A stretch of 64,000 bases of DNA from Bolinopsis microptera (Eukaryota > Ctenophora > Tentaculata > Lobata > Bolinopsidae), in the NCBI RefSeq assembly GCF_026151205.1, contig NC_087078.1:13933118-13997117 (forward strand), written 5' to 3'. The translations under genes and the position numbers were made by a program. Positions within the stretch are counted from its first letter, which is position 1. Every line of letters begins with the position of its first letter. The notes under the pieces are model-generated. The model ran no database searches and was not told the origin of the DNA. It worked only from the letters and a program-made list of their open reading frames with translations. Positions 6,440 through 34,659 of this stretch are shown here, piece after piece.

Positions 6440-6725
6440 GTAACCAATTTCAATCGGATTTGTATTTTCGGACGCTGTTTCGAATCACCCCCTGACCATG
6501 TTTGTCGGACCAAAATTTCGCAACAAAGCGATTTTAACGGGATATGGTCGGGACAGGTCCCAGAATCATTCCAGAAAAAAAAAGTCCCAAAATCTGGATT
6601 GAGCCAAAATCCACAATTACCACTTTTTTACCACCTTTTTACCACTTTGGTTTTCCGCAAATAAGTCACGTTTGAATATCCCAGAGTTTCTAGTTTAACA
6701 GCAGTGTGTTTAGGAAAACAAATAG
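6440..6725. mobile_element. Terminal fragment related to the 8445-12537 element
   Basis: The stretch from TTGTCGGACCAAAATTTCGC through CCACTTTTTTACCACC to AAGTCACGTTTGAATATCCC matches the left terminal repeat of the larger element (8467-8700) with scattered differences. It lacks the CAGTCAAATCCG terminus, so it is a truncated, older copy. Confidence 0.7.
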
Positions 6726-6816
6726 GTAATCAAAGTTCCATACCCAAAGAAAGCTTTTGATAAACGGAAAATTTTGGAAGATTTTTGAAGAGGAGCTTTT
6801 CTGCAGCCCGTCTAAC

Positions 6817-9800
6817 CTTGGTGTCAGGGCTCATGAGAGCAATATCCACTCCGTAAAAAGGTCTCATAGCGGCTCCAGGCTTCAAGTTAGTGAGGTTATT
6901 GGGGTCTAGGCCAGGTCTGGGAGCTATCATTATACCACCTGACAGTTAGTTCAAGTTAGTGAGGTTATTGGGGTCTAGGCCAGGTCTGGGAGCTATCATT
7001 ATACCACCTGACAGTTAGTTCAAGTTAGTGAGGTTATTGGGGTCTAGGCCAGGTCTGGGAGCTATCATTATAACACCTGACAGTTAGTTCAAGTTAGTGA
7101 GGTTATTGGGGTCTAGGCCAGGTCTGGGAGCTATCATTATACCACCTGACAGTTAGTTCAAGTTAGTGAGGTTATTGGGGTCTAGGCCAGGTTTGGGAGC
7201 TATCATTATACCACCTGACAGTTACTTCAAGTTAGTGAGGTTATTGGGGTCTAGGCCAGGTTTGGGAGCTATCATTATACCACCTGACAGTTAGTTCAAG
7301 TTAGTGAGGTTATTGGGGTCTAGGCCAGGTCTGGGAGCTATCATTATACCACCTGACAGTTAGTTCAAGTTAGTGAGGTTATTGGGGTCTAGGCCAGGTC
7401 TGGGAGCTATCATTATACCACCTGACAGTTAGTTCAAGTTAGTGAGGTTATTGGGGTCTAGGCCAGGTCTGGGAGCTATCATTATAACACCTGACAGTTA
7501 GTTCAAGTTAGTGAGGTTATTGGGGTCTAGGCCAGGTCTGGGAGCTATCATTATACCACCTGACAGTTAGTTCAAGTTAGTGAGGTTATTGGGGTCTAGG
7601 CCAGGTCTGGGAGCTATCATTATACCACCTGACAGTTACTTCAAGTTAGTGAGGTTATTGGGGTCTAGGCCAGGTCTGGGAGCTATCATCATACCACCTG
7701 ACAGTTAGTTCAAGTTAGTGAGGTTATTGGGGTCTAGGTCAGGTCTGGGAGCTATCATTATACCACCTGACAGTTAGTTCAAGTTAGTGAGGTTATTGGG
7801 GTCTAGGCCAGGTCTGGGAGCTATCTTTATACCACCTGACAGTTAGTCCAAGTTAGTGAGGTTATTGGGGTCTAGGCCAGGTTTGAAAGGATCAATCTGA
7901 AAAGATCAAGTATCTATTTAACCTAACAAATATTCGACCTGTTTCAGTTTGCCACCAAGTATCCACTACGGGACATCGCCCCTCTCCCACAATGTCAAAG
8001 TACCACTGCCAAGCTTTAGGATTTATAGGCTCACCAACTGTTCCTAGCGTTCTCAGCGATGACCTGATAATAAAATATATATAATTTATAAATAGATATT
8101 ATATAACGTTGTGTAATGTAATAATGTATACAATGCTAAATTACACAACATTCCGATCTTAAGAGGGCCGGGGGGGGGGGCCTCTTAAGATGTTTCTGAT
8201 AGATGGGAGTGATATCTATCAGCGCAGCGGCTTTTGGTCCCATGTGGAAAAATATTGTTCCTACCTTACGAGACATTATTAAATACTTTTCAAATTTTAC
8301 AGAGTACAGCAATAGATGAATATAAAATAGAATCGTTCAAAATATCGCCCCCATCTGTAATCTGTGTGCGGGTGAGTGATATGATGTTGAAAGTATAGGA
8401 AGGTAGATAAAAAAATTAATAAAACAAAAATAATAATAATAGTACAGTCAAATCCGTCCTAATTTAAGCCTTTGTCGGACAAAATTCGCAACAAAGCGAT
8501 TTTAACGGGATATGGTCGGGACAGGTCCCAGGAATCATTCCAGAGAATTCCCAAAATCCTCGACTTCAGGAAAATCCACAATTACCACTTTTTTACCACC
8601 TTTTTACCACTTTGGTTTTCTGTAAATAAGTCACGTTCTGAATATCCTTGAAGACTCTAGTTTAAAGCATTGTGTTTAGAAAACAAAGAAGAACAACTTT
8701 TTCTTTAACAACTTTTTCAAAAATAAATTATTTAATTAATTAATTAAATAATTAATAAATTTTCAAATATTTCAAAAATATATTTTCACCAAAAATGTTT
8801 ACAATTACATTCCACGTATAATGAACTAATTTTTATAAAAATTTTCACTTTCAATATTTTGGACTTGTAAAATTTTCGAAATTTGTAAAGAAAAACCACT
8901 ATTTACCACTTTTTACCACATCGAATCTCCGCTAATAAAACGACTTCTGAATTTCGTAGAAGGTTCTAGATTGAACCAATGTGTTCAAAATATAAAAGAG
9001 AACAACTTTTTATCTGACAACATTTGGATTAGATAATTAATTGATATTTTAAATAAATAATAATTAAATTTTTATAAATTTCAAAATATAATTTTTATCA
9101 AAAATATTTGCCGTGACGTAAAACGTAAAATGAATTTACTTGAATAACAGAACATACACCGTCACATAGATTAGATAACAGATTAAAAATCCAGATAAAT
9201 GGAATAAACGGTAAAATATCCAAATTTGTACGATACCATTATAGCTTATAATACCTTCCGGGAATTATATCCACTAAAAGTCTCGGACACTGAGAGCTGA
9301 TAATTTGCCGATATATCCCGCAAGGGAAGCCAAGATATTATCAGCATAGACCTCAGACTGGCTGGCGGCAAGTTGTAAAACAAATAACACTGGCGTTCTA
9401 TATATTAGACACTATATTGTATCATGCGCACGTATCGGATTACACCCCTTCCAATTCGGAACCGGAAAATATTATAATACATAATACCTCCGGTTCTTCG
9501 GGCCGCAAATTCCCTCCAGCAAGCTGTCGGGAATTATCAAGCGGAGCCCGAAGAGCCGAAGGCATTATTATATTATAACTATTTACACATCATATCTCTC
9601 GACTTAGTGTTGTGCTTAACTAGATTGTTAAACTAGTTTGTTTGGAAGTGTAAGCTTCAGCTTTACTTTATGTTGACTTCTCTTCGTAAAAAAGTTGAAT
9701 CTGCTAAAAATCGAGGACTAAAATCACACGAAATAGTTAATATTTTGACAAAAGAAGAACACATCGTGTGCCTGATACTGTACGCGTGCAGATTCTATGT

Positions 9801-12800
9801 AAGTAGCTGTCAACTAATATACAATAATAGTAATATGTTTTTACCGTTTTACTTTTAAGTTTGATGTCAGCGGAGAGCGCAACTAGAGGTATTCTTAACC
9901 AATACAATGTTTTAATTTACCAGGCAAATGAGGAGTTAGTTTCGGTGAATAGCTTTAAGAGGGCGAATGATCGACGATGTAAATTTGTATGGAATGAAAT
10001 ATGGAAAGGGTTGCTGTCCCCAGGTGCTATTTAAACTATTTATCTTTTAAGTAAGTACACTTTAACTTTTAAACTATGCCCAGCAAATTTGAAACGGATA
10101 CGTACAGTCCTATTCTTTATCCTGACGCCTCTCATACCTTGTATAAATAAACAAATCAACGCACCACAGGTTGGATCAACAACCCCTGGTCACTGAACGA
10201 AATTAAACGGCAGTACAACGGCATGACTGATTCAGCTCAGAGTGACGTCTTGTGTGTATTATTGCAGACAGTGACCATAGACCAGTTCCAAAGATTCATG
10301 TCTAGCCTAGCGGTTAGAGCATCAGCGCAGAAGGTTCAGGGTTCAAATCCCAGTGTCACCTAGTCTAGGGAGTAGCTAAGGATCCATTGGATCTATGCGA
10401 TCTCAACGGTCGACTCAACCGAATGATAGGAAACTTAATTGAGGGTTAAATGAGGAGGGGTACCTGTTAAAAGTTCAAGAAACTTCCTAGGATACCCCTT
10501 CAGTGCATACTGTAAACATAGTGCTATTAACTATTATATCGGCCAATGAAGAGGAGTCCGTTGTAACAGAGTCAGGACCATCTTTGCTTTAGTCCACGAA
10601 CACAGTTTAAACAAATGTCCACTCTGTAACGTAGAGATCGCACCAAATGATAAATCCTCAAACTGGATTACAGACAGGGTAAGTTATTGTACGGGGGAGG
10701 GGGGAGGTGTTATAGTACACATACGTTAGGCTCTTATTAAGTTACTAATTCGCTCGCCCAAAAATTTCATATGACTTTCTCCGTAGCTTAGTGCACTGAT
10801 TCCCACTATTGGAATCGTTCTGAATAGCCGATCCTTACCAACTCCGTGGATTCGACTGGTGGTGTCTGATCCAGTGAAAGCGTGGCACAGAAATCGTGCA
10901 GAAAGCCCGATTTCAGTATCCTAGCACCCTGTCACGTGATAAGCGATTAGGTAATCATTGATAACCCAATCAATTTCGCTAACGAGATAAACAAATTGCT
11001 TGATAACTTCGTAATTTTCAATCCGTTTCGCACATCGTTTTGATTTGCAGAGAGGCAGTTGAGTGGTCTAATCAAGTTGTTGTTTCTGTAATTGGTGATG
11101 ATACTGATTTGCTTGTCATTTTACTGCACATGACAAAACACTTTGCATTTGACCAACAACTGTTTCTCACCACCAAAAGCTACATCTATGACATTGAGAA
11201 CATTCGAAGTGCGACTGGTAGGAGGTACGTAAACACGATACTGCTGCATGCCACGCTTTCACTGGATTGGTAAGGATCGGCTCTTCAGAACGATCGCATC
11301 CATCGATGAAAGTGTAATAGATGCCTTTTATTCGGCAAATTCTACACCAGCTACCATAAAGTATGTCGAGAACTTTTGATGCTGCAGCTGATTTCATCAA
11401 AATCGAGATCACTAGATGAAGCTAGACTTTCAGTTCTTGAACAGAAGTCGCAATCTTTAACAGCAGACATCAAGTGCGAACAGCTCCCGCCAACATCTGG
11501 GGCAGCTGAACAACATTCTTATCGTGTTTACCATCAGCTGCAGGCGTGGGATGAGAATGACCTAGATCCGATAAGTTGGGGATGGAAGATGAACAATGGG
11601 ACACATGTACCAGTGACCACTCTTATGAGTACAGCTCCGAAAAAGCTCATTTAAAAAATCATTTGCAACTGTTTAAAATCAGGTTGTGGCAATGCTTGTT
11701 CATGCAGAAAAGCAGGAATACATTGTGGATCAACCTCAAATGTCAGGACAATTGCACCAATGTGCTAGCTGAGGACTCATAAGTTAGACTCTTATCTAGT
11801 ATATATGGTTATATAAAGTACTACTTCGGTTTCCCGATTAATTTAATGAAAATTTGTTAATTATTCGTGATATGTAATTTTAAAATATTTTGATCAAAAA
11901 TAATTTTTATAATTTTTGAATATTTGTTTAATAATCGAATTAGCTAATTAATTAATTATCTAATCCAAAGGTTGTCAGATAAAAAGTTGTTCTCTTTTAT
12001 ACTTTGAACACATTGGTTCAATCTAGAACCTTCTACGAAATTCAGAAGTCGTTTTATTAGCGGAGATTCGATGTGGTAAAAAGTGGTAAATAGTGGTTTT
12101 TCTTTACAAATTTCGAAAATTTTACAAGTCCAAAATATTGAAAGTGAAAATTTTTATAAAAATTAGTTCATTATACGTGGAATGTAATTGTGAACATTTT
12201 TTATGAAAATATATTTTTGAAATATTTGAAAATTTATTAATTATTTAATTAATTAATTGAATAATTTATTTTTGAAAAAGTTGTTAAAGAAAAAGTTGTT
12301 CTTCTTTGTTTTCTAAACACAATGCTTTAAACTAGAGTCTTCAAGGATATTCAGAACGTGACTTATTTACAGAAAACCAAAGTGGTAAAAAGGTGGTAAA
12401 AAAGTGGTAATTGTGGATTTTCCTGAAGTCGAGGATTTTGGGAATTCTCTGGAATGATTCCTGGGACCTGTCCCGACCATATCCCGTTAAAATCGCTTTG
12501 TTGCGAATTTTGTCCGACAAAAAGACGGATTTGACTGTACTATAATATGGGGAGCAAAGAGACTAGGCTAGACTGTTGTTTCACTATCCAATAAACATTT
12601 CCATAGATGCTTAGTGACCTCAGCTTTGAAAAGACTAGTAGACACAATCTGTCTTACCTGTAAAGGGAGTCCATTCCAGGATCTAAAGTCTCGAGTTAAA
12701 AAGTCTGAGAAACAGTCTAAGAACACGCAATTATTCTTTAGGCATAAGTCTTTAAGTAGATTGTTAAAATCTAGAACATTCTTTGCTATGTAGGAATATA

Positions 12801-15800
12801 AACACTTAATAGGAAGACAACATTGGAAAATTATAATTGCAGCGGGAAATAACTGCTTAGTGGTGTCAATTAAGTCATTAAGATACTTCCTAAGGAACTG
12901 AACCCCATACTTAGAATGTTTTATGTCATTTGTACCAACACTCAATATAACTTTTTCAATATCGTCAGCTTCTGCAGCTGCATGAGTTTTATGAAAATGC
13001 TGAATGTTTTCAGTGATGTCTCTAATTTTTGCACCTCTTTGAGACACATTGATTACTTTCCTTCCCCGGAATCCCAACTTATATTTATGTTAGACATAGT
13101 TCCGGTGACCTAAATGATAAATTGGGAACGAAAATATGGGAATTTTTTTCGAAAACCGCCTCATTTCGTACCCCAAATTAAATCTTGATATTTGGGGATT
13201 TTATTCATCACCTTATTTTACAAAAATGAAACCCAATATTTGAGAAAATAAAATACAAAGATCTTCTCTGAGCGGCTATTTCATCTTGTAAACAATTTCT
13301 CCGGAGCCTTTGAAAATTAGCCTCAACTTAACTTATAATTTTTAAGGCAATTCATGATCGAATAATAGTGTTCATTAATTGTTTGATGAATCATATTTAT
13401 TTATAGCCCGAAAATATGGTGTTTTTTTTTTCGAAAAACTACCGACTTTCGTACCATTTAAATATGTCTCGTAAGGTAGCCAATATTATTTTAATCGTAT
13501 TTTAATCGTATGTTCTAGAGATCATTTAAAAGAGATGAGCCCGACAGAATTTTGGGAAAGGCTTTATTCGGTTTTGAAAATTTGGACTTCAAAAAATCAT
13601 AAAAAAACGACCGGCGATAATTTCGGCTAGGAACAATATTTGTCCATGGGACCTAAGAGCAGCTGATAGATATCACTGCCCTCTATCAGGAACAACTATA
13701 AAATCAATTTCGATAGAATTTTGATGCAGACCCCCCACCCCGGCCCCCTTAATCACATTTTCTCACACAGCAGTCAGCATAACGGCTGGATAGTCAAAAC
13801 TAAACACCGATACATTATATTTAACAACAATACTTCTTTTCAACTATTCCAAACTAAAGTATCAAAACACAATTAGAATTAATATAGTAATTATTCACAT
13901 AATTATCTACATCATAACTAAGTGATTACCTGTCGTATTTGGTCACATAACTATCACTGCTCTTCATGAGTAGTCTCACAGCTGTGGGAGCTCCGTAAAA
14001 CTGGTTTATTTTCAGCCTTTCAACCGTCTCCCAGTAACGACCTGAACCATTGTTACAAGATCAGTGCACCCCTACTTTTTCCATCGATCAATTCTAATCA
14101 TTTTCGCCACCAAATCGCTCAACTTAAAAGCGAATTATGTTAGAAAAGAGAATACAAACCAGGGTCGGGGTAATTAGGCGTACTCTCGAACATAACAGTG
14201 GTAGCAGCGTTACTGAGAGGACCGTACACCACGTACGAGTGACCGGTAATCCACCCCACATCCGCTACACAGGCGTACACGTCATCTGGCTTGTAGTCAA
14301 ATATTTGCTGGTGGGTGTAACCAGCGTACGTTAGATAGCCCGCCTGAGTGTGAACTAAACCTGACCAGTACCTTTTATCAGGATGTATTACTTACAAGTT
14401 GTTACCTACATTCTACACTTGGTAGATGGCGTTAGGCGGGGTATGGTAAAAAGACTCTCTAAAAAAAGAGGCACTATAATTAAGAGGTACTGTGATTAGA
14501 GGTGTCGCTGTATCATTGTATTGGACACTATCATCGCTATCAGATCTGTCTCCAAAGCAAAAGGAAAGCATAATCTTTAAGTCAGCACGCTCTCGTGTTC
14601 ATTCTCATGCTCGGGGATACTGTGACAATGAGGTTGTTAGTAAATAATTTGAGTTAGTGATGAGTGTTGTACCTTTGGGAGCTCCAGTGCTTCCAGAGGT
14701 GTATAACATGAACAGAGGGTCTTCAGAGTCTAATACTACTGGAGCACACTCTGACGAGGCACCAGCCATTTCCTGGAATAAATATAATGAATTCCAGCTG
14801 CGAACAAAGTGATAATCATAGCTGATGATAAATAATTCATTATAAATTGTTGACTTTATTAGTTTAAAAAAAGTTTATCAGCATAAAGAAACTTTTCTCT
14901 GAGAATAAGTAAAAGTAATGAAAAGTAAATAAGTAAAACTAATTACACTCTCAAGAGACACATCCTTGCTTGAAGTGAGCTCTACAGCTCCAGTTCTGTC
15001 CATAACAAATACTTTCTGGACAGAGGGGGCCATCTTCGCTGCCTCGTCCATAATACTCTTCAGAGGAATCAGTTTACCACCTCGTATAGCCTGGGTAATG
15101 GTACATGAGTGACATCGTATCATGATGAATGGTGATACAATGTAATGCATTGACATTACCATGGAATACGTTAATGGTAAGTACAGTATAATATTATACA
15201 TTTATCACATGCCTTCTCATGCGATATCAAAACTTTCGCCCACGAGGCTTGCCGAGTTAACGAAAGTTTCGATATTCCCCGAGGCTTGCCGAGGGTTATA
15301 TCGACATTTTCAATCACGAGGCTTGCCGAGTTTTGAAAATGTTGATATCGCATGAGAAGGCATGTGATTAATGTTTTATCACACTTTCTTTGGAGCCAAA
15401 TTTGGCAGGGAAAGCAGATTTTGATCAAACGTTAGTTATAAATCTCACCAAAGCAAAACTAGACATGTCGAACTTATTTATGTTTATAATGTCCAAGCTA
15501 TATATAGCTCTCGATAAGTTAGTATTTCAGATATTAAAGTTACAATACGTGAAATTAGAATCTCGCGTTTCACATTTATGACACAGTGAATGCTGTGTGC
15601 CGCGCTGAATTTGCTTTGTACTGCTACCTAGTGCATGCAATATTAATGTGTTTTCCGCCTATGGGTCTTGTACTTATGAGTCTAGAATATTCCGCCGCGA
15701 GCGCGTTTGATACGTAATTACATCCTGCAAATCAATTGATATGAGGTGATTCTAATACTTTATTTCTATTAGATATTTTTAGAGTCATTAAAACTGTAGA

Positions 15801-18800
15801 TGCAGTATAATGTATAGAACATCCGTTTAAGTGTTGATTATACATCACAGTCCTTATCGTATAATCTGTATCTGCGATAAGGTGAAAGAATTTCCTGGTT
15901 GTTAAATTTGGATAGAGCTGTGGCGCCATGATTGTCTATTTATCAGTCCACATTATACACTGCACACCCTAATTTACACCAACAATATTATCGTCCGTCT
16001 TGATTCTTGATTGTCTGTTATTTCAGAATGATTTAATCAATGCAACTTGTAATCGTTGACTTAGAATTTTATCAAGTATTCTGCTTAGTTCTTAGTCAGT
16101 ATACATCTTTACTTGCCATTATTTGCCATTATTTGGAGCCAAATTTGGCCTGGAAAGCAGAATTTGATCAAACATTAGTTATAAATCTCACCAAAGCAAA
16201 ACTAGACATGTCGAACTTATGTATGTTTATAATGTCCAAGCTATATATAGCTCTCGATAAGTTAGTATTTCAGATATTAAAGATACAATACGTGAAATTA
16301 GAATCTCGCATTTCACATTTATGACACAGTGAATGCTGTGTGCCGCGCTGAATTTGCTTTGTACTGATACCTAGTGCATGCAATATTAATGTGTTTTCCG
16401 CCTATGGGTCTTGTACTTATGAGTCTAGAATATTCCGCCGCGAGCGCGTTTGATACGTAATTACATCCTGCAAATCAATTGATGTGAGGTGATTCTAATA
16501 CTTTATTTCTATTAGATATTTTTAGAGTCATTAAAACTGTAGATGCAGTATAATGTATAGAACATCCGTTTAAGTGTTGATTATACATCACAGTTCTTAT
16601 CGTATAATCTGTATCTACGATGAGGTGAAAGAATTTCCTAGTTCTTGAATTTGAATAGAGCTGTGGGGTCATAATTACATAATTAGTGTCTATTTATCAG
16701 TCCACATTATACACTACACTCCCTAGTTTACATCAACAATATTATCGTCCGTCTTGATTCTTGATTGTCTGTTATTTCAGAATGATTTAATCAATGCAAC
16801 TTGTAATCGTTGACTTAGAATTTTATCAAGTATTCTGCTTAGTTCTTAGTCAGTATTCATCTTTACTTGCCAATATTTGCCATTATCTGCTTCGAGCTAA
16901 AAATTATCTGAACTGGAAATTATCAGAACATTTGTAATATTCAAATGTATCTCTTCAACATTTTAGAACGCAGTACTCCACCAGCCTATAACCACCCTGG
17001 TCATGGCCAGGTAGTTCACCCGTACTGTTACCAATATTGAATTGGTCTAATGAATGGCAGCACATTAATCATCGGACCTGTTTGCCCCAGGCCCAGACTA
17101 ATTTATAACCAGATTAGCTGATTAAGTTACGTCATTCGTCCCTTGATATATTTATATAAATAATATATTTTATAGGATGTTTTTATTGCACTTATTTGCA
17201 CTAACTAAAATTCAGTTAAAACTAGTCCTGGGATAGAATTTCCGCTCTTTATTGTACAGAATCTACATACAGAATCTCTTTATCAGTCTGTTTATAGATC
17301 AGCCACGAATTTCGCAAGCTAATCTAGGCGAAACCGGTTTGGAAAAGCCAAGTATAATTTCTGCACAATTTCTATATGGAATATGGCTCACAGAAGGGAT
17401 CAGATGGGGTTAAAAGTGAGGTCTGAGATGGCTGAAATGTGGCTAAATTAATATGCGAATGATCCCATATCGTAATGTATCACAATTTATTACGTTATGA
17501 TTTGCTGACCAGCCCTTTATCAATTCTTGACAATAATTTTCTTTCAAATATAACTACTTGACACCAAGATTCTTGTTTTGTGTGTTTTCTTCGTTCGAAT
17601 TAATCAAACATCGTTTAGTGTTTACTATTTTTTGTGAGGGCGACTGTAGTTTGTTCTGACATTTCCTTTTTAATTTCAAGTAAGTGATTAGGGAAATTAA
17701 TTAGCCTGATTGATTGTATCGCTGACAAGTACCAAAACTTTGTGCAACTTTCAAGTCTGCTCGTAAACTTTGATCTCGTTTTCAGTAATCTTAAGTCACT
17801 TAAAGCTCGTACAAGCCAGGGAGTTTTTACTTTGTTTCATCATTCTAAGCTTAATTAGGCTTTGAAATATGAAGTGCAGTAAAAAAGCAACAGCTTGAAA
17901 AAGTTTTACAACAAAAATTTTTATTTTGCTTAACAGATCTCAAACGCAAGGAAATATTTTTAAAATTATCCATAAATATACATTTTTCCTAATTGTGAAA
18001 TGTTCATCTGATCATTGCATTTACGGTCATAGACTACTTCAGGTTGTTGATTTAAATCTGTATCTAAATCAGTACCTCACAGTAGTAGAACAGTTGTTGA
18101 TAGTGGGTTCCTTGTTCCTATAGGAATATCGGGCACTCTCTGAGCAACTGATTGATATTTCATGCCCCCGGGTGAGAGCCAGTGCTCCCCATCGGGGCAT
18201 GCAATATCAATTCTGCTTTCCTGCCAAATTTAGCTCGAAAGTGTGATAATATATTATATTATAATATTATTACAAGAAAGAACGAACCCTGTCAGCAGTG
18301 AATGCTACTTTAGCTTCAGATTGTTCGAGACGTTTACCAAGAGCCTCTGCACTAAACCCAGCAAATACAACGTTATGTATAGCTCCTGGTATAGCTCCAT
18401 TTTAAGAGCCATGTTTGTATCAATAGTATAATTAGCGACATTAAATATAAATCACTAGAAACTAAATCAAATCAAAGTTAGACTAATCTATTATTATTTT
18501 TGTTAATTATGTCGCTGCCCACAATAAGCTTGAAATGCAATTTTTAAGCGATTCCGAAAATTTCATGCAAAAATTTGAAAACTGATGGAGTTATTTCGAT
18601 TTTAATGAAGTCATTTTGGCTAAGTATCCTGAACCGAGATATTATTATATGTGCAGTTTTGTTCATGGAGGTCTTTTTACTTAGTATCCATTATTCAACA
18701 GATATTGAGCTATATCTTTCACATAAAGTTAGTCTCATTCAAAAATATTGAAATTTGATCGAATTTTGGGCAAAAGCTTTCAAATTTGGTGCCTATGCCC

Positions 18801-21800
18801 AAATATGGGCATATGGTCAGCTCCCCTCCCCAGTCCCCCCCAAGATTTGAGAATGGTTCCTTAAATGAAATATTGTGCTCGTTTACCGCGCTCATATGGA
18901 TAGCAACTGACACAAGTGCCAGGGACTAACCATGTCAGAGCGTTTCTTGTAACCAACGACTCAAAGTTATGGGGGAAGAAAAAATAACTGCAGTAAATCA
19001 AAGACGGTCATATTTTGAATAACTTTTAAGCTATTAAAAGTTTTAGTTAAATTTCAATAAAAAACATAAAGGAGCTGACTGTAATAGGACAGTAAGGACA
19101 GCTGCAGCAAAGCACTGTTCAAACATTGCTGAAAAGATGATAATTCAATGGATAGAATGAAAAGAAACTTTCAAAAAATACTTTGAATAACTCCTAACAT
19201 CCTTTCAATATGTTTCAGTGTAACTAAACAAATCATCGTAACATTACCTATTCTAGCACAAGCTAACATGACAGCAGCAGCAGTAGGGCACATAGGGAGG
19301 TAAACACCCACTCTATCTCCTTTTGAAACCCCGTGAGATTTTAGCACATTTGCAATACGGCATGTCATCTCATGGAGTGCTCTGAGGAATTGCGTAGTTT
19401 CAAATTCCAATAATGTGGGTGGGATTAGATACTGGGATTGGTACGGTATCATGAGAACCGCTCTATACCTGGTTTTATCTGTTCTGTTCACCTTTCGTTT
19501 CCCACATGAAACATGGTAAAGAGAAGTTCTGTCTTTTATAACTCTGACTTACTTGTACGTTATCAATTGAAGTTATAACTTAATTGTACGTTACCAATTG
19601 AAGTTATAACTTACTTGTATGTGACTATCTCATGTTGCCCTGGCTCGTCGCGCTCCCATAGTATAGCTGCCTTGTCACTGTGTTCCACTAGATGTCTGTC
19701 CAACAGGTTTTCTGAATGTTTTTCATCATGAGTTTGAGTGGAGAATGGGGATGGTTGCTGATCCCCTAGTCATAAATATGAGCTTTTGTCATAATATAAA
19801 CTATGGTTGTATTGCTTTAATATTTAAAAATATCTAAGTTGTTATACCATCTTTATATTACCTGACACATTGAGTTTACCGCCTGTAAACCAGTTCACTT
19901 TTCCTGCTTTGAAATTGCAGTCCGAGATTGTCTGGTACGGCTCTCTCCAGTATATCCTTTCTGTTGCTATTTGGTTCCAAAACTCATCACTGAAACATTT
20001 TGCATTTAAAGGAAACCAAAAAACAGTAAACATGTACCAAATTTATACTGCAGTCCGAGCACAAAAGAAACAAATCATAACTCCAATAAACTGAGTCACT
20101 ATTAAAACTTTTAAAATGATGTTGAACAGATCTACAGATCATACACTTTAAAAACACTAGACTTAAATGACAGGTTGAAGACTGTTAGTAAAACAAAGTA
20201 TTTAGTAAAACAAAGTATTTTATTTATTAGCAGTGCAATCAATTCATATGATATAATTATAAGAATATAATAGTATGTCACACCTATTTAACTGTTACGT
20301 TTGAGTAGTCGTGCCATGGCTAAATCTAACTAGGACCAGTGGTGTCGATTAACATTTAATAGGTGAGTCTAAGTGACACAAATGGAAAATTTTAAGAAAA
20401 GACGGATCAAAACACAGATCCAAGGACAAGGAGACCCCACTGCAGGACCATACATGCTATTGGCTTGTGCATGGCCCAAAAGGTTCCAGTTGTCCAGGAA
20501 ACTGTACGTAGCTGGTCAACTAGTTTTGAGTTCAGACTAGACTTGATGAGTTCTGGGGTTTCTAGAGGTAAGATTTGATGGTGCCATGTTTGTTCAGGCG
20601 GACATGGAAATTATGCGATGAATATATATAGGTATATAAAAATCATATCAATATAAAAATAGAGATCCAAAAATAGATCCAAAGATTCACACGGCAACCA
20701 GGGAACTTCCAGACAGGATGCTTTTGAAACAGGTATAATTAGCGCTTTTGTAATTAATTGTATGCAAGGGATGGGATGCTGATCAACTAAGCTGGTTCAA
20801 TGCCCCAGCTATTTAGGGGGAGCCACTCAATTTCACGCCCAGGTGTTGTCAATTGCTAGGTTTCAAGCAAAAGCTTTTTGATACGGCTCTTGATAATTGA
20901 AATGGGGGAGGAAAGGTCGGAAAATTTACTAGAGCCAGGCTGCCGTTTTCTCAGAAAAGGCAGTAAGTCCAAATTTTCGAAATATGACAATTGCAATATT
21001 GGTATCAAAATTTTCGAAATATGACAATATTGGTATCAAAATTTTCAGTAGAAAATTCTCTACAACATTAGCTACATATTAATGTATAGAAACATTGTTG
21101 CATGCAATTCCTAAGGAAGTAAGTCCCAGTTGAGAAACATTATGTTTGGTTTTGGCCAATTATTTTCTGAGAGAAGGACGTAAGTCCGGACTTACTGCCT
21201 TTTCTGAGAAAATCTTGAAAATTTTCTGAGATAAGGAAGTAATTCCGTGGACTTACTGCCTTTTCTGAGATAAATTATCTGTGATAGGAAGAAGTAGCTG
21301 GACTTACTTCCTATAAAAGCATGCTAAAAACGGAATTTTAGAAAGCGATTTCCCAAAAATAACATAACTTTACTGCCGATTGATATTTTCGCTTGAAATT
21401 TTCAGAATCGCTGTATAATTACATTTCAACCTTACGTAAGTGATCAAAATTTTCATTTAGGCCTCAAAAAAAATTGGTGGCCGATTTTCAAAAACGTTGG
21501 ATGTATTTTAGTCGCAAAACATAAACATTGGAGCAGTTATTGAGCTGTTATAATCGCAGAGAATGTTTAGTTTAGGTATATCTTTTAGATCAAGTTCATT
21601 TTCATCAAAATATCGATAAGATATCATTTAATGCACTGAAATCGTTCAAAATTGGCGAGTTTGCCTAAATAAGGGCATACTATTATTCAAAAACATTTAT
21701 TATATGATATGGAGCAATTTAGATTTACCTAATTGTTTATATTTTACAATATAATCCAAAATACATAGATCCCAACCTCAAAAATTTAGTAAAAAGCTTG

Positions 21801-22599
21801 GACTTACTTTCTTCTCAGAAAAATATTGAACAGAGATTTTTCTCAGAAAAGGAAGTAAGTCCAAGTTTTCTCAGAAAAGGCAGTAAGTCCATCCAGTATG
21901 AAAAATAAGTTCGATTATTTGGCATAAAAATGGTTATATCTAAGCTTATGGACGGCTCAAAGCTTTAATTTTTTTGACAAATTAAAATTTGACTAATTAT
22001 TGATAACTCAACGTGTTTACTTTTGATCTTACGCAAAAAGTAAGCAGAGAAAAAACCATAAACGCAAAAGTCGCAATATCTCGAAATGGCAAATATGGAC
22101 TTACTGCCTTTTCTGAGAGACCATGACATTGTTTTCATTAGGAGTGCATTTGTCGAATATTTTATCAACCAAACTGTTCCATTATATAGTCGTACCTTTG
22201 GCGACAAAATTGTGTTTAGAAATGTCAAGTTTGTGTCGGGGGACCCGCATAGTTTGGCTACATGTTCTGGAACTTGTTTGGAATAAACTTGTCAGAGAGA
22301 TGGGTTGATGTTTCTGGCGAATATAATATATACAATACCTGGCCCTTTTTATTACTTATGTGCATTTTTCTACAGGCTTTTTAACAAGCAGGTTCATAAG
22401 AGGAGTTAAATCCATCACAACAAGATGATTCTTGACAGGTTTATATGACAATACAATTATAATACAGTTAATGAATTGGTGGACAAAATTACCTGGACTC
22501 GATGCTGTGTTGATGAAGAGTAGGGTAGTCTGTTGAGAGTGCAGCAGAGGCTACAGTTGACAGGAGGGAACGGGCAGTGTGGCCAGCCCGATGCAACAT
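6817..22599 (-). CDS. Acetyl-CoA synthetase (AMP-forming), mitochondrial-type, 11 exons, 3' end not in window
   Basis: Catalyses acetate + ATP + CoA to acetyl-CoA via acetyl-adenylate. Exons in transcript order: 22493-22599, 19862-19989, 19615-19711, 19248-19381, 18288-18385, 14947-15090, 14673-14772, 14160-14360, 13930-14041, 7939-8063 and 6817-6938. Lengths 107, 128, 97, 134, 98, 144, 100, 201, 112, 125 and 122 keep one frame through every junction (456 codons). Exon 1 begins [20 protein letters not shown], basic and hydroxyl-rich, suggesting mitochondrial import. Landmarks are [33 protein letters not shown], the adenylate P-loop [38 protein letters not shown] and [16 protein letters not shown] followed by [10 protein letters not shown]. 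The family usually has about 650-700 residues, so roughly 200 C-terminal residues, including the catalytic lysine domain, are missing. They lie left of the window or were lost; positions 1-6800 are repeats. The final donor CAAG|GTTAGA is the least certain junction. Confidence 0.92.
6881..7885 (-). repeat. 69-bp tandem array duplicating a splice acceptor plus exon start
   Basis: About 14.5 near-identical 69-bp units. On the minus strand each unit contains CTAACTGTCAG|GTGGTATAATG, which is the 3' splice site and first bases of synthetase exon 11, followed by that exon's next ~55 bases. The true exon continues past the last unit at 6881. The array therefore lies in intron 10 directly upstream of the exon. 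Although 69 is divisible by three, each unit has an in-frame TAA (AACTTGAACTAACTG), so using an upstream acceptor would truncate the protein. Confidence 0.93.
9670..9858 (+). CDS. Short open frame inside the transposon, unknown
   Basis: A 62-codon frame that starts with a basic, helical-looking stretch ([13 protein letters not shown]) and ends in an aromatic run. It lies just inside the left terminal repeat, where a first exon of an element-encoded protein would be expected, and a possible donor GTAAGT follows at about 9799. I do not recognise the sequence. It may be an N-terminal exon of the protein at 11040 or may be non-coding. Confidence 0.2.
   Translation: MLTSLRKKVESAKNRGLKSHEIVNILTKEEHIVCLILYACRFYVSSCQLIYNNSNMFLPFYF
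10301..10498 (+). mobile_element. tRNA-derived SINE
   Basis: Has a pol III type-2 internal promoter in tRNA spacing: A box TAGCCTAGCGG at 10303-10313 and B box GGTTCAAATCC at 10340-10350. A tRNA-unrelated body follows up to about 10498. It cannot fold as a full tRNA (no matched acceptor stem), so it is a SINE head, inserted inside the 8445-12537 transposon. Confidence 0.7.
11040..11790 (+). pseudogene. Broken transposon-associated protein with DDTDLLV motif and Cys-rich tail
   Basis: Plus-strand fragments match an uncharacterised protein family found in mobile elements of cnidarians, arthropods and fish. They contain the motif [18 protein letters not shown], where the clustered acidic residues recall PIN/FEN-type nucleases. 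An expected LLHAFTG-type block follows at about 11245, then a 100-residue linker. The tail [21 protein letters not shown] lies around 11660-11735. Frame changes at about 11250 and a stop near 11650 separate these parts, so the gene is dead here. Part of it (11246-11290) is repeated in inverted form at 10817-10880. It may be the element's own gene or a passenger; function is unknown. Confidence 0.55.
12568..13077 (-). pseudogene. SGNH-hydrolase-like fragment of a transposable element protein
   Basis: A 169-codon frame. Residues about 44-52 read VILSVGTND, the block with the conserved Asn/Asp of SGNH/GDSL hydrolases. [15 protein letters not shown] precedes it and [20 protein letters not shown] follows at about 104-123. 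This arrangement is typical of esterase-like domains carried by LINE ORF1 and other invertebrate elements. The catalytic Ser block (GDS) and the C-terminal Asp-His block are absent. The last ~40 residues look unrelated to the fold, so the frame is probably a 5'- and 3'-truncated relic. It abuts the right end of the 8445-12537 element. Confidence 0.6.
15206..15366. mobile_element. Foldback element with CGAGGCTTGCCGAG repeats
   Basis: The ends CACATGCCTTCTCATGCGAT and ATCGCATGAGAAGGCATGTG are exact reverse complements. The interior alternates AAACTTTCG or AAAATGT arms with three copies of CGAGGCTTGCCGAG, making nested stem-loops. No coding capacity. It lies in intron 5 of the synthetase gene. 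Confidence 0.7.
15391..16885. repeat. ~743-bp direct tandem duplication
   Basis: Unit 1 (15391-16134) and unit 2 (16135-16885) begin with TGGAGCCAAATTTGGC and end with CTTTACTTGCCATTATTTGC or a close variant. They differ by scattered substitutions and a short insertion at about 16673. Each contains GAATATTCCGCCGCGAGCGC and small shadow open frames. It lies in intron 5 of the synthetase gene. Confidence 0.93.
16886..18287. other. Intron 5 remainder, no gene seen
   Basis: AT-rich sequence with no family motif on either strand. A GC-rich inverted patch, CATGCCCCCGGGTGAGAGCC...CGGGGCATGCAATATC, at 18162-18208 resembles the short foldback elements elsewhere. Confidence 0.4.
19550..19620 (-). repeat. 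31-bp repeats carrying a duplicated splice donor
   Basis: Two 31-bp units (19550-19580 and 19581-19611) followed by the start of a third. On the minus strand the true exon 3 donor is TACAA|GTAAGTTATAAC at 19615/19614. A second intact TACAAGTAAG occurs 62 bp into the intron, and the middle unit has lost it (TACAATTAAG). Confidence 0.8.
20945..22118. repeat. Hairpin-rich element built on CTCAGAAAAGGCAGTAAGTCC
   Basis: The motif CTCAGAAAAGGCAGTAAGTC or its reverse complement occurs at the left edge (~20951), near 21170-21290 (several, in both orientations), near 21840-21895 (two direct) and at the right edge (~22097-22118). The outer copies are inverted, so the block looks like a 1.17-kb element with inverted ends and internal copies. 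No coding capacity is seen. It lies in intron 1 of the synthetase gene. Confidence 0.7.
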
Positions 22600-23557
22600 C
22601 AGTATCAAATAATCAACTAAAGACTAAATGCAACTCTTTTGAATGCAACTAAATTAAACTCAATATAACACAAGGATTCAATAAGAGGATTCAATGATAA
22701 AAAGCATTTTTAGAGCCATGTTTGTATCATGATCAGTAGTATAATTAGTGACTTAAAATATAAATCACTAGAAACTAAATCAAATCAAATCAAAGTTAGA
22801 CTAGTCTATTATTATTTTTGTTAATAATGTCCTTTGTATCTAGACTGAGTGGAGACATTATAGACTTGAAAGTGATCGAAAAAAAACGTTCTTTGACATT
22901 TACTGGAACATAAGATATTAAACATACTTCCGACATTCACAATTGTTTAAAATAGGAGAAGGGGCAAAATTGGCAAACACTATGCTCATGATACGATGGG
23001 CTTCAAAAGAACAAATCTTCGCTTCTATCTACTTTGTACTTCGGAGTGTCTTCATATCTGTTCGAGGTGTCAGGGAAAGTCTGCTAAGAAAAGTCATCCC
23101 TTTGAACCTTATTTCATCATGTGAATCTCATAGCTGTTTACATTATTTTTCGTACTAAACCTTCATAGTAGACTGTACTGCTTCGGTATTCGGGACAGAA
23201 GTTAATATTTGGTTTTGTACATCAATGAAAATATAGAGATTTTAACAAATTTTGGTTGCAATGTATATAATTGTTGTACACAAATGACCACTAAAAAACG
23301 TTGTGTAACACTTTGCGGACAGTCCCAATAAAAATATGTCATTTCTGTTACCGTTAGTTGACGATGTCAACGATCGACGATGGGAAGCAAGAATGCTAGT
23401 TCGCGCGGCGCGTCGAAGCGGCGAAGTCCTCCAACTGTTACCGGTGTACTGTTTTCTGCCAGTTGCATCATATCATATCACACATAATATATCGAATTTT
23501 TCCACTTCTCGCTAAACAAGAAGCTCGAGAAGAACGCCGTGCATAGAAATATTTACT
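22600..23557. other. Upstream region of the synthetase gene, no further gene seen
   Basis: Contains a partial copy of the sequence near 18410-18510 (GAGCCATGTTTGTATCA and the AAATCACTAGAAACTAAATC stretch) at 22710-22830. It also contains a copy of the 24040-24090 repeat (GAATGCTAGTTCGCGCGGCG) at 23391-23440. The synthetase promoter and 5'UTR should lie at its left end, but no box is clear enough to call. Confidence 0.4.
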
Positions 23558-23684
23558 TTACCTGAGGACCCCAGGCTTTAATGTTGATAAACAAATAGAG
23601 ATTAGGCGGAATGACAAGCTGAGCGCGGCCCAGTAATATTTACTGGGCGGCGCTCAGCCTGTCATTCCGCCGAATCTTTATTCG
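23558..23684. mobile_element. Two TTAC...GTAA elements head to head
   Basis: A full copy, TTACCTGAGGACCCCAGG...GCGCGGCCCAGTAA (23558-23636), is followed after two bases by a second, truncated copy in the opposite orientation (TTTACTGGGCGGCGCTCAGC...). Together they form a palindrome of about 45 bp per arm. Confidence 0.75.
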
Positions 23685-23854
23685 GGCTGAGTGAATTATG
23701 ACCTCCATCGCCCTAAAAAAGTTGCTCTATCCAGAGCCCTTGCGCTTGCAGTAGCGGGGGGGGGGGGGCCGGGACCAGGATTGGTAAATTATGACCGGGA
23801 CTTGACATACGTTGCATGCCACTTTTCGCGCGCGCCGCCGAAGGCGGAAAAATA

Positions 23855-24274
23855 TAATAATAATAATAATAATAATAATATATAATAATAATTATATATA
23901 TGATATATAAATATTGGTTGACGATGTCAACCCATCGAGATCGTTGCTCTGCGAAGCAGAGCAACGATCGACGATGCTTCGACGATGCTTCGACAATGCT
24001 TCGACGATGCTTCGACGATGCTTCGACGATGCTTCGATGCGAAGCAAGAATGCTAGTTCGCGCGGCGCGTCGAAGCGGCGAAGTCCTCCAAATATAAATA
24101 TAATATAATAATAATATAATAAAAACATAGATACATGTTACGTATCACAAATATCAGAGATATTTTTTTCCGCCTTCGGCGGCGCGCGCTTCGCGCGCGA
24201 AAAGTGGCATGCAACGTATGTCAATAAAAACATTGCATAATATCTCTGATATTTGGATACGAAACATGTATCAA
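23855..24274. repeat. Compound repeat: (ATA)n, GATGCTTCGAC array and CG-rich inverted-repeat element
   Basis: (ATA)n at 23857-23892 is followed by about six 12-bp units of CGATGCTTCGA type at 23972-24030. Next is a CG-rich block ending CGAAGCGGCGAAGTCC. The element at 24130-24274 has inverted ends GATACATGTTACGTATCACA and GATACGAAACATGTATC around the palindromic core GGCGGCGCGCGCTTCGCGCG followed by AAAAGTGGCATGCAACG. Related cores occur at 23800-23850, 52560-52605 and 56655-56735. Confidence 0.65.
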
Positions 24275-24697
24275 ACCGGGACCAGGATCGGGATTTTTGA
24301 TCCCAAATTAAAATTGGCCGGGATCAGTCAAATTTGGACACCAAATTTAGCGGAATCAACTATTAGTGCGGAAGTGATCCATGTTTGAAATGACAATTTG
24401 TTTAAGATCAAAAATTTGTTGAGTTTCATATTACAAATGATTACTTACTTTGGTTACTTTGTTGTAGGTTTACAACCTACCAGGACGGGCGTCGAGTTGG
24501 AACAAATATTTTACGAGTATCACCCGTTAATTACTTTGGTGTGCTTCATAGAATCCTCTATCGGGTCATCAGAGTTGCTGACCACCTGGACAGCGAGATC
24601 GCTGCCTTTATTCCACTCCAGTCCACTAACGAGTTCCCATTTCGACAGCTGTATCCTGCCACTAGAGGCTCATCCGGGAATGATTTCACAAACATTG

Positions 24698-25190
24698 TTA
24701 GCATTTTTTAAAGTGCTGGGGATCTTCGATAGTATGCATGTTTGGTGGAATTAAGTTCCACAATCGAGGTCCAATTACTACAAACGAATTGTTGTAGAGC
24801 GTTTGGTTGCCCTGACTGCTATATTTATTCAGAGTGAGAATAACTGCCTTTTGGCCATGTCGGAGTGTTGCGGAGAACTGGATGTTGACATCATTTGGGC
24901 ACTTGCCGTGCAGCACTTTCCACATGTGGATGATGGTATATCGTTCTCTCCTCCGTTGCAACGACATCAAATTTAAGGCCTTGAGTCTCTGACAGTAGTT
25001 TAGATGCTGTATGCCATCTATTCTCGTTGTGAACGTGCGCTGAACCCCTTTCAGTTGTTGGACGTCTGCACTCTTGGAAATATTCCATAAGGGGCAACAG
25101 TACTCGAGATGGCTTCTGATGAGGGATTTGTAAAGGGTCAGCATGGTGACTTTGTTCCTCGTCCATTGTTCCTCGTTTTTTTGATATGAT
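24698..25190 (-). pseudogene. LINE reverse-transcriptase C-terminal fragment
   Basis: A frame of about 150 residues starts LYKSLIRSHLEYCCPLWN and continues with KGVQRTFTTRI, a run of basic residues at RLKALNLMSLQRRRERYTII, and GPRLWNLIPPN near the end. These are the thumb and post-RT landmarks of Jockey/CR1-like LINEs (L..RP.LEY...W; QR..TR.I; LNL.SL..RR...D). No catalytic domain lies next to it, so it is a truncated copy. Confidence 0.8.
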
Positions 25191-25493
25191 TTTTAGAAAT
25201 TTTTCGCTTCACGCTGCAAATTTTTTCCAAAATCTTGATAAAAATTGTATCTTAAATCCCGGTCAAAATCACGGTATCTTGACCGGGACCGGGATTTGGT
25301 AAAAAGTCCAATCCGGCTACGGCTGGGCCCCAGTACCGGGATCAAGGCCGATCTCTGATAAGCACATGTACGATCTTACTCTCAAGAGGGCAAAATTATT
25401 AGCAATATATTGCATTCATGAAGAAGGCTCAAGAAGTGATTTTATATATTACTGACTGTCTTTTTGTTTGTTTTTTTTTGGTGCAACACTTAC

Positions 25494-25618
25494 TGACTTG
25501 ACCCATGAGAACGATGGGTCCTACTGAAGCCCAGCTGATTTGCATTGAGTCCACTATTCCAGGACGAATCTGCTGGTACCATTGCTGAGCAATGGCAGTT
25601 GGGTCGGGGGCGCCCCTC
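25494..25618 (-). CDS. Orphan exon of an unidentified gene
   Basis: A 125-nt minus-strand segment bounded by a good acceptor (CATTCTTAG|GAGGGG) and a strong donor (GTCA|GTAAGTG). It encodes GAPDPTAIAQQWYQQIRPGI and then about twenty more residues rich in Ser, Val and Met. The sequence looks protein-like and has no stop. I do not recognise the family and see no companion exons nearby. It is not part of the synthetase, whose start codon lies downstream at 22599. Confidence 0.4.
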
Positions 25619-26029
25619 CTAAGAATGACTGCCGTAGATACCGGGGATTGCATACTTATGTTTGATATGCGTTTATACTCACTCCTTGCTAAGCCATTAA
25701 TATTACACACAACCACAAGTCGATGCCAAGGAGTTAATGTTTTGGTGTATTTAGTCTAACTGGTATATATTTTTGACGTGCACAAGGATTGGTAAGGTAT
25801 TTGCTCGTCTTATCGGATGTAACGGCAATGTGTACACGTTATTATATATATTGTGTGTATTGTGTGTTTGTTACAATTGGGGTACGTTAATTGGAAGCGT
25901 CGTCACGCTTTCTAGTCACATACACCTGCCTCCGAGAGAATAATTCTCAGAACTAAGTGTAGTTTTCGATTTGTTGTAATTGGTGTGGTTTACTCTGCTG
26001 TTTCCACACAGCAGGGGGGGGGGGGGGCT

Positions 26030-26200
26030 GGGATTAATGATGCAGTGCTGGGGCTCGAACCAGCGATCTAACGATTGCTGGCCGCGCTGCCCGACACTAC
26101 CCGACCACCACCAAGCCCAAGGCTAGTGGCAGAGTCGGGAATCGAACCTGGCACCTCAAGCAATGCCAGGCGGATTTACCAACTGCGCCACCAGCTCCCC
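26030..26200 (-). mobile_element. Dimeric tRNA-derived SINE
   Basis: On the minus strand two tRNA-like heads follow one another. The first has A box TGGCGCAGTTGG (26179-26190) and B box GGTTCGATTCC (26139-26148). The second has an A-box-like GGCAGCGCGGCC and B box GGTTCGAGCCC (26051-26061). Neither forms a complete cloverleaf. A G-run (plus strand 26017-26030) follows the second head. Confidence 0.7.
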
Positions 26201-27267
26201 ATATTACTGACTGTATTTACCAAAGTATTATATCTGTACCTTTGTTGTCGGCACTGGCATCTGCATCTGTCTTTGAGGATCTGAACAACATCCCTCTATT
26301 TTTAAAGCTACATCCAGTAGCGAAACGTACCTGTGTGCCGCCCCTGCTTGACTTTTTTGTTCCTCCTAAAATTTTTCTAATGTCCCTCAAAAAATAGTGG
26401 GGGCAGTTGTTTCACCACTGGTTACATCAGCACACACCGAAACAGGCTCTCAACATTGCGAAGAAAACTTGTTAGCTAATAAACATCAACTATCTAACTA
26501 TGAATCTTTGCGTGCTTGTACTTGGAAGAACAACACAAACAGTTGTCTTGATTGGTTTCATCGGCTCAGACGACAACATAATGAACATCAACTGGCAAAC
26601 CTGACAAATAAACTGGACAAAACCTCCAAGCATCCACACTTGGAAGCAAGGTTTTTATACCTGATCATACATACTATTATCATTTTTCTTCAGATCAATG
26701 ATCATGTCTATTGTGTATGAACAGGGGACCTCCTAAGTGGTTTCTTCCAAATGTTGAAATCAATTTGATGATCAAAACGTTATCAACAGAGATTGTGTAA
26801 TAAATCATATCAAATATAGTGAAGTCACAGTTTTCATCATTGTTGATCATAAATTCGACTATATAGATTGATGATAGGGAGCAAATAAAAATCAATTTTC
26901 AGAAACATTTACGAAAATTCCGGAAAAAAACATATAAAAAATTGACGTTTAGTATTGATCATTGACTTTCAAAATCGGACAATTTCCAGTAAGTTTAACA
27001 TTCTATGTACATACTTGCATAAATCAGTTTGCCCTAAGCTTGTCTAGCAAAAATCATTGATCTTGTTCTACCCAGCATTCATTATTGATTCAATACTCCT
27101 AGTTCAACAGTATGAAATTTTATATTCCTTAGACTCATCCAAAGTGTAGGGTATTCGTTTCTTTGAATGATGATCTTTGATGAGCTGAATTTCTGCAGCA
27201 AGCTGATAATCCAAAAAAGTACTTGATGATAAATAAAGACTGAGGATGACTAAGGAGTACTTGATGA
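26201..27267. other. Spacer without a supported gene
   Basis: AT-rich sequence with scattered repeats of GTTGATCATAAA/TTGATGA type. The 107-codon frame at 26397 has no homology signals, and no splice-bounded segments stand out. Confidence 0.4.
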
Positions 27268-27557
27268 TTAAGAGTCTGTCTCATCATTGGTAAAGGTTCC
27301 ATAATTAAGTCCCACCTCTAAAAGATTAAGTCCACTGAGGAGACTTGCATCCAACATCTTCTGTTGTACAGACTCTTCACGATCCATCTCTTCCTCTTGC
27401 AGGTTCTTAAAACAGATAATGGCTAGCACTACACATTGAAGAAAAACTAAAACCAACGGTAGAACAAGTTTAGTCGTACTAAACGTCTGGAAATCTGATG
27501 CATTGTATAACACAAAATTTTCGTCTATTCTTGAATCTGTTTCATTTTTCAGAACAT
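27268..27557 (-). CDS. Last exon of a membrane protein (single transmembrane segment, acidic tail)
   Basis: The exon opens after a good acceptor (GTCGCTTCCAG|ATGTTC) and runs 96 codons to a TAA. It encodes DVLKNETDSRIDENF, a lumenal-type stretch with NET and NAS glycosylation sequons. A hydrophobic span KLVLPLVLVFLQCVVLAIIC follows, then a positive KN and an acidic cytosolic tail with dileucine-like motifs (DASLLSGLNLL). The shape suits the final segment of a type I or multi-pass endolysosomal or surface protein. Upstream exons should be at higher coordinates; I could not identify them. Family unknown. Confidence 0.5.
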
Positions 27558-28299
27558 CTGGAAGCGACAAAATAAACAAGTTATTGACCATCAGTATCCT
27601 GAAACATCGTTTGGGTGTTACAAAATGCAGTAAAAATATGCAAATACATCAAGTAAGATTTATCGATTTGTCAGCACACAACAAATTGTGAAGTAAGCCT
27701 GAAGTGTAAACAATGGATTATGGATTCATTATAAAAAGAGTTAACGTAATTTTAGAAAGTCACAAAGACATCATCTTTACGGTAGCCATATTTTATACCA
27801 TAAACTACATCAAAGGTATGAGAAGAAGATCCACAGAAATGGATAGGCCAAAATCGTTCAAATTGTGACAAACGACAATGATGATCTTCAATGCTTGCCT
27901 CAACAGTAAAAACTAAGGTTTAAAGATGCTATCATGATCCCATCTGTCGAATGGATTTCTATTTAAATCAATAGAACTCCTATTTTGGGGTTGTATTTGA
28001 TTGAGGCAGCCTACACAATACTTCACCAAGTAAGTGCCTCATTTCGTGGCTTATATTTAAATACTGACAAACAGTTGACATAATTGTCCCCAACAAGAGA
28101 GGTTATCAACTATGTAGGCATGTTCGTATTCACTGTTCCTCGCTGGTTCCAAGTTTTAGTAATGAGCATGCTTTGCATTGTGTGATCAACAAACTAATCC
28201 GAAAAAGGTGATATTAAAGAAATCAATCAATTTGGAACGTTTCCAAGACTAAAGGTCACATTTCTAGTTCTCCTGTTAGCCAGTGTTCCAGGAGAGGAT

Positions 28300-28760
28300 T
28301 CCACTATCCAATTACTATGTGAGAAAATTCGGCCCTGGATTTTGTAACCTTCAAAGGCAGAACAATCGTTAGTCTACGGGTATTAAATATCTTAATAAAA
28401 GTATTTATACATTTATAAATGTCCATAGGTACAACAACATTACACACTTTAACAAACACACAAGCAGGCACGTAGCCAGGATCACAAGGCAAAATCAAAA
28501 TATAAATTAACAGCGATTCTGATGCACAAATAAATTGCAAAATGATTCAACAGTAAATTTGCCCAACCACAATGAATGGAAAGAACAGCAGCATTGTACA
28601 GCCGGCTGTAAAGTATCTGACTGAGAATTAATTGCTGAACAAAACACCACTGCATGGAATACAGTATTTTATTGTCCGGTACACGATGCAGCATCTATGT
28701 GTATGGTATTGGAAGCGTCACTGTCTTGCTGTTGTGCACAGTACAAAGACAGCTCTATAT
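28300..28760. repeat. LINE remnant and dispersed repeat (inverted copy at 46186-46415)
   Basis: From about 28491 to 28760 the sequence is the reverse complement of 46186-46415. Shared landmarks are CAAATAAATTGCAAAATGAT, ACAGTATTTTATTGTCCGGT and AGCGTCACTGTCTTGCTGTT. The adjoining minus-strand frame at 28304-28540 resembles the end of a LINE polyprotein, but only weakly. Confidence 0.6.
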
Positions 28761-29085
28761 AATATAGATTGGAAAATCCGTTTAATTTTCAAGATGTTAT
28801 TGTCCTTTGGATCAGATCTACATGACGTCATTCCAATTATTGGGAGTGGGAACATTTTTAGATTTAATTGCTGTAAATTACTAACTTATAAAATAGAAAT
28901 GATAAAAAAAGAAAAGAAGTATTTGCGATCCTCTTAAGAGAGGTCAAAGTTGGTTATATTTAACAATAGTAAGATTATAAATATTCTGCCTCTCCATCTT
29001 CTATTCTTCTTGCAAACTCAGGATAAAATCAATACCCATAAAACTTGTAACAATCTAACAAGGATAGGCTCCGGTTCCAGAAAAA

Positions 29086-29216
29086 CCTGATTTCACCTGA
29101 TTTCACCTGATTTCACCTGATTTCACCTGATTTCACCTGATTTCACCTGATTTCACCTGATTTCACCTGATTTCACCTGATTTCACCTGATTTCACCTGA
29201 TTTCACCTGATTTCAC
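29086..29216. repeat. 10-bp tandem repeat (CTGATTTCAC)n
   Basis: About thirteen perfect units of CTGATTTCAC, ending in CTTATTCC. It lies just upstream of the CIMIP2-like first coding exon. Confidence 0.95.
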
Positions 29217-34650: not shown

Positions 34651-34659
34651 ATCACTTCT

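Follow-up and report, generated by a model that had tools for sequence, protein, structure and literature searches.

A minisatellite of splice acceptors, most likely neutral, in an acetyl-CoA synthetase intron of a ctenophore

The window, i.e., the whole stretch of 64,000 nucleotides of Bolinopsis microptera DNA that was analyzed, carries on its minus strand part of an acetyl-CoA synthetase gene, in which a 69-bp minisatellite lies across the end of intron 10 and the start of exon 11 (Table 1). An amplification of about 14 copies at this acceptor had been pointed out in an earlier note and is real, as judged from both TRF (14.5 copies) and the number of acceptors (14). Each unit of the window array joins 11 nt from the 3' end of the intron (CTAACTGTCAG) to the initial 58 nt of exon 11. 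The acceptor that the note placed at 6938 was located correctly, with exon 11 reading from 6938 to 6817. The span given for the array (6881..7938) held for positions 6881-7882, but not for positions 7885-7938, i.e., 54 nt at the start of the intron, which are not part of the repeat.

Table 1. Features of the acetyl-CoA synthetase locus in the window, and two arrays elsewhere in the genome
Feature	Position	Strand	Remarks
69-bp minisatellite, 14.5 copies	6881..7882	-	TRF: period 69, 98% match, score 1934
Exon 11, 122 nt	6817..6938	-	first 58 nt = last unit; donor CAAG|GTTAGA; boundaries transferred from full-length copy
Intron 10, 1000 nt in window copy, 1208 nt in full-length copy	6939..7938	-	
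Non-array stretch, 54 nt from exon 10 donor (GTCGAA) to array	7885..7938	-	no significant likeness to unit
Exon 10, 125 nt	7939..8063	-	ends ...WWQTETG at ACAG|GTCGAA
Arm of inverted segmental duplication	6724..35699	.	partner C7:14164423-14136142 (BLAST of both regions)
3' breakpoint of window gene copy	6724..6724	.	93 bp beyond exon 11; exons 12-15 missing
Upstream exon segments compared, truncated copy	13929..19988	-	some reach slightly into introns
31 bp x 2.4 repeat across exon b donor ACAA|GTAAGT, acetyl-CoA synthetase gene	19547..19619	-	present in both gene copies
Thiolase exon (L053) to TATCAG|GTAAAC, first of 16.4 copies, 26-bp unit	C4:15344724 region		
WDR62/MABP1-like WD40 exon end + donor (L054), 10.1 copies of 29 bp	C5:13821520 region		

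When the window's own genome was searched with the array, a second array was detected on the opposite strand at C7:14163001-14164266. An exon 10-11 protein query against the same genome gave 31 matches, all of them within these two loci. The second array belongs to the sole full-length copy of the gene found, which is located ∼222 kb from the window copy in inverted orientation. Its 14 exons (C7:14158786 to 14166423), set by hand from GT-AG boundaries and numbered as in the earlier note, form a single open frame, read as 636 aa, which passes the exon 10|11 junction at the last acceptor. The full-length copy scores 863.3 bits against the TIGR02188 acetate-CoA ligase model (cut-off 724.95), and its protein matches PF16177, PF00501 and PF13193, the last of which sits in the C-terminal exons. 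These C-terminal exons were found once, in the full-length copy; a search for them at the window copy found none, and a fourth C-terminal-exon match, at C7:13795665, was not counted (different frame, 33% identity). In view of the open frame over 14 exons and the TIGR02188 score, the full-length copy looks usable, despite its array of acceptors.

The acceptors of both arrays were located by the string ACTGTCAG, which gave 14 in the window array and 17 in the second. Since the units are 69 bp long, with a single unit each of 75 and 64 bp, there is no space for an acceptor missed by this count. The AG is present at all 31 acceptors of the two arrays, and is followed directly by GT at 14 of 14 in the window array and at 16 of 17 in that of the full-length copy (30 of 31 in total). 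In both arrays the terminal unit, which forms the real start of exon 11, is identical to the consensus, and the 120 nt of exon 11 that were compared between the two gene copies are all identical. The gap in intron 10 length between the copies amounts to three units plus 6 and minus 5 nt.

The window copy is truncated at one breakpoint of the inverted segmental duplication. In terms of sequence, the two arms differ by large insertions and by ∼1-3% substitutions in the aligned blocks. Ten exon segments, exons 10 and 11 included, show 8 differences over 1353 nucleotide sites (3 synonymous, 5 not), with neither a gap nor a stop. By eye, similar repeat sequence occurs at window positions 6480-6720, directly beside the 3' breakpoint of this copy, and at 8453-8700, within a 4.8-kb insertion (8276-13081); the presence of like repeats at both places suggests a possible role of a transposable element in shaping the breakpoint. 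Farther along the same arm, a minus-strand ORF at 29938-31266 encodes what we take to be a Penelope-type reverse transcriptase with a GIY-YIG-like end. Beyond the full-length gene, at C7:14170918-14171711, there is an 84-bp tandem repeat, by eye a zinc-finger array. An Rfam scan of the window returned no matches at the gathering score.

It seems improbable that the copies represent two alleles or haplotigs joined in error, or that the length of the array is wrong. The substitutions and insertions that separate the arms would also be possible for alleles, and the Bolinopsis assembly, if it is the same one, was built with wtdbg and haplotig purging according to the available part of its description; however, no collinear continuation was evident past either breakpoint in the fetched stretches (only short repeat-like matches), the segment C7:14100000-14109999 gave no match at all, and the window and the fetched flanking stretches that were read contained no N runs. 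An artefact is also rendered less likely by the fact that the array was assembled twice with different counts, and the two versions have distinct unit variants. Even if the copies were alleles, the array would be carried by both.

Variant-bearing units number 8 of 14 in the window array and 6 of 17 in that of the full-length copy (the 75-bp and 64-bp units included), and none of the unit variants is common to both arrays. The mean difference among 69-bp units is 1.2 bases in the window array and 0.8 in the other (15 of 17 units compared), versus 1.0 between arrays, so that the expansion was fairly described as recent in the earlier note. Within the window array, one variant is common to units 4 and 10, and another to units 6 and 12; the same six-unit offset in both cases suggests duplication of a block. 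A third variant is shared by units 9 and 10. Private variants occur in unit 1 of both arrays, but also in inner units. The length of the array is unstable, with 14 versus 17 acceptors in two gene copies of one genome, one of which also includes units of 75 and 64 bp. As the array is present in both gene copies, it would most simply be older than the inverted duplication, and would have turned over since.

The consequences of splicing at the different acceptors were read from the sequence. Exon 10 ends ACA G, such that splicing to any upstream acceptor brings the frame to a stop 20 codons on (12 in the 64-bp unit). The in-frame TAA described for each unit was confirmed: all 13 upstream units of the window array terminate at the TAA at the end of the unit (exon 11 frame), as do 15 of the 16 upstream units in the full-length copy, the 16th (the 64-bp unit with its deletion) stopping earlier. 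From the last acceptor, the reading frame continues through exon 11. The related claim, that only the last acceptor gives a full protein, applies to the full-length copy (C7:14158786-14166423) but not to the window copy, which lacks any exon beyond 11, so that even its last acceptor yields no full protein. From the exon 10 donor, the distance to the first array acceptor is 103 nt and to the last 1000 or 1208 nt (window and full-length copies, respectively). The exon part of each unit includes CACTAAC, whose branch-type A lies 17 nt upstream of the next exon start. This is a fitting distance for a branch point, and each unit thus likely offers a predicted branch point to the next.

The donors were scored crudely, by the number of consensus matches among nine positions, for 13 donors from this one gene. 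The exon 10 donor GTCGAA matches at 5 of 9 positions, joint lowest among the 13, and the exon 11 donor at 7 of 9. The donor recreated after splicing to an upstream acceptor (ACAG|GTGGTA) matches at 6 of 9. On such grounds, the array might act as a recursive ladder, in which each upstream splice recreates a donor and is undone stepwise, the mRNA always being exon 10 joined to exon 11. The 30 acceptors with an immediate GT would suit this scheme, as would a recreated donor scoring above that of exon 10 and the juxtaposition of acceptor and donor sites that defines ratchet points in the parts of the literature available. We nevertheless consider the scheme very improbable, as GTGGTA is a weak donor where a strong recreated one would be expected, and as Drosophila ratchet donors weaker than the donor of the following exon lead, in the available part of the source, to exon inclusion; here, the exon 11 donor is the stronger.

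The equality of the acceptor cores speaks against a preference for the last copy, since the upstream copies would be favored if sites were chosen by scanning or in order of their appearance. Another possibility is that the array acts as a leaky switch, in which upstream acceptors serve a real fraction of the transcripts; these would carry the TAA of the unit and be degraded, with enzyme output dropping as units rise. This appears rather unlikely. Equal acceptors, a stop after every upstream one, the unequal number of units in the two gene copies and the low consensus score of the exon 10 donor are all compatible with such a switch, and the human CBS 31-bp VNTR is associated with reduced CBS activity in the title of a reference; in contrast, both the amphioxus arrays and human CBS 844ins68 described below are reported with normal mRNA in the accessible parts of their sources.

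Among known systems, the closest counterparts are the amphioxus 'mirages', which the available part of the original report describes as minisatellite-like duplications of intron/exon boundaries (PMC3087553). Of these, the globin gene BflGb6 carries repeats in which the 3' end of an intron is combined with the 5' portion of exon 2. Its two haplotypes have 6 and 3 units, and according to the authors RT-PCR points to undisturbed regular splicing; they propose a path to new introns (PMC3087553). Further cases were described in Adh, TnC and PGBD5, as far as the accessible portion of that paper extends (PMC3902484). Like these mirages (BflGb6, BflGb9, Adh3, TnC and PGBD5, in the parts available), the ctenophore array shows a tandem unit across a boundary, splice signals, differences in copy number and an intact gene, and BflGb6 shares the exact side, i.e., intron 3' end plus exon 5' part. 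The ctenophore belongs to another phylum, and the amphioxus sources contain RNA evidence, whereas sequence alone is considered here. Compared with BflGb6, which has 6 and 3 units, the array is also larger (14 and 17 acceptors), and its units are more uniform (98% alike against 81-100%).

Other likenesses, again drawn from partly available sources, are more distant. In human CBS 844ins68, the intron 7/exon 8 junction is duplicated and two sites compete, experiments having indicated that normal mRNA is maintained by use of the distal site; that case involves one extra copy only. The human CBS 31-bp VNTR and the IFI6 (6-16) minisatellite likewise multiply splice sites, but on the donor side, according to the notation c.1444_1467+7 for the former and the title of the reference for the latter. 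The intron gain in potato RdRp also started from a tandem duplication over an intron 3' end and an exon start, in that case a single one, which produced a new, used intron. In a literature search, no boundary minisatellite in ctenophores was evident by title, most subscription papers lying outside its coverage.

Taken together, the array is best explained as a boundary minisatellite like the mirages, neutral and unstable, in which splicing mostly uses the last copy; we assign this reading a probability of about 0.74. The first extra copy would have arisen when a short stretch around the junction of intron 10 and exon 11 was duplicated in tandem; slippage or unequal exchange would later have expanded and homogenized the array. 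Each unit would amount to a compact 3' splice site, with CACTAAC as its putative branch point. In the full-length copy, the last acceptor would be expected in most transcripts, since only the last copy makes a short exon (122 nt) closed by a donor. Transcripts spliced to an upstream acceptor, which reach the stop at the end of the unit, would probably be subject to nonsense-mediated decay, and the array itself would have no special function. Of the possibilities raised in the earlier note, that of a neutral satellite born from an exon edge is thus the one that appears to fit best, in agreement with the kind already known from amphioxus, the mirages.

A different origin would be the birth of the intron itself by tandem duplication of an exonic AGGT (the Rogers model), exons 10 and 11 having once been continuous and the intron representing amplified coding sequence. 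The AG|GT junctions of the units agree with such an origin, and intron births of this type have been reported, as far as the sources were available; the 54 nt on the donor side, however, resemble the unit no better than shuffled sequences often do (the local score was equalled or exceeded in 95 of 1000 shuffles and the anchored score in 70 of 300), and we regard this origin as improbable. An origin of the array by microhomology (ACTTGA, present both where the intron ends and within the exon) is not claimed, as the pre-array stretch fails to beat shuffles.

The occurrence of similar structures was analyzed further, within the gene and in the genome. The repeat across the exon b donor has TT instead of GT in its middle copy, and the third copy is intact. 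Outside the big array, a tandem copy holds 12 of 319 random gene positions (6 of these 12 in the 31-bp repeat), versus 1 of 26 other splice sites. The exon b repeat is thus real, but occurs at the background rate of tandem repeats and by itself lends no support to the mirage reading. A short direct repeat at the exon d acceptor fails the random-position test and was not counted. By eye, a clear coding boundary was not found at the window repeats at 34845, 56861, 29085 and 62430.

Genome-wide, there are 2462 occurrences of the perfect donor CAGGTAAGT, with 496 pairs (180 + 316) at a spacing of 10-40 nt. The control was a single motif, the donor read backwards, which is about half as frequent (1212 occurrences) and gave no such pairs (0 + 0). 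Of the 496 pairs, 100 were listed; these fall in 12 loci, all of which were examined, and 67 of the 100 come from two arrays, C8:17904441 and C10:1535228. Two of the 12 loci have a recognizable exon that ends at the array, three have a suggestive open frame and seven have none. The exon of the thiolase locus (L053) matches Pfam thiolase at 1.9e-10 and a PDB acetyl-CoA acetyltransferase at 5e-11; the last donor spacing is 31 bp, and a later thiolase exon lies downstream of the array. The WD40 exon (L054) matches PF24782 with an E-value of 1e-5, under the Pfam cut-off. The three suggestive frames (L041, L048 and L062) had no Pfam match, L048 giving a weak PDB hit to importin 7 (E 0.81), nor did the frames at L047 (86 aa) and L051 (55 aa), which are among the seven loci without a coding flank. 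Boundary arrays therefore appear to recur in this genome, two other genes seeming, from their sequences, to have donor-side ones.

Several further arrangements were observed in this genome. At L060 (C8:7268791-7269160), a 37-bp unit is repeated ten times. Its consensus extends from GTAAGT to TTTCAG, such that at the unit junctions a perfect donor comes immediately after an acceptor, in the manner of ratchet points set in a row; a coding flank was not seen. At L062, from C10:1535207 onward, 32-bp units with CAG|GTAAGT lie behind a short open frame, and the pairs span 1535228 to at least 1537028 among the matches listed. A ctenophore photoprotein query gave 61 matches on C1, C2, C3, C5, C9, C10 and C13, the near full-length ones with 85-90% identity and many in regular tandem arrays with a spacing of ∼0.94-1.03 kb. 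Queries with COX1 and lancelet GFP had no match. No tandem telomere motif was present in the five contig-end stretches that were read.

It could be proposed more broadly that ctenophore genomes repeatedly amplify splice boundaries, and that the arrays are recursive splice ladders from which upstream choices are removed. We hold this broader proposal to be improbable; if the ladder were real, very large arrays would be tolerated and could later be converted into switches or new introns. The structure is instead viewed as a boundary minisatellite of a known kind, most likely neutral, for which the phylum is new, and whose partner, a full-length gene, carries the same array. A structure known from lancelets would now extend to a lineage that branches at, or close to, the base of the animal tree, with signs of recurrence, and the birth of repeats at splice boundaries would then not be peculiar to lancelets. 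The full-length gene, in which 17 acceptors are nearly equal, and its truncated sister with 14 offer a natural test of how the spliceosome chooses among them, and likewise of the tandem-duplication route to new introns.
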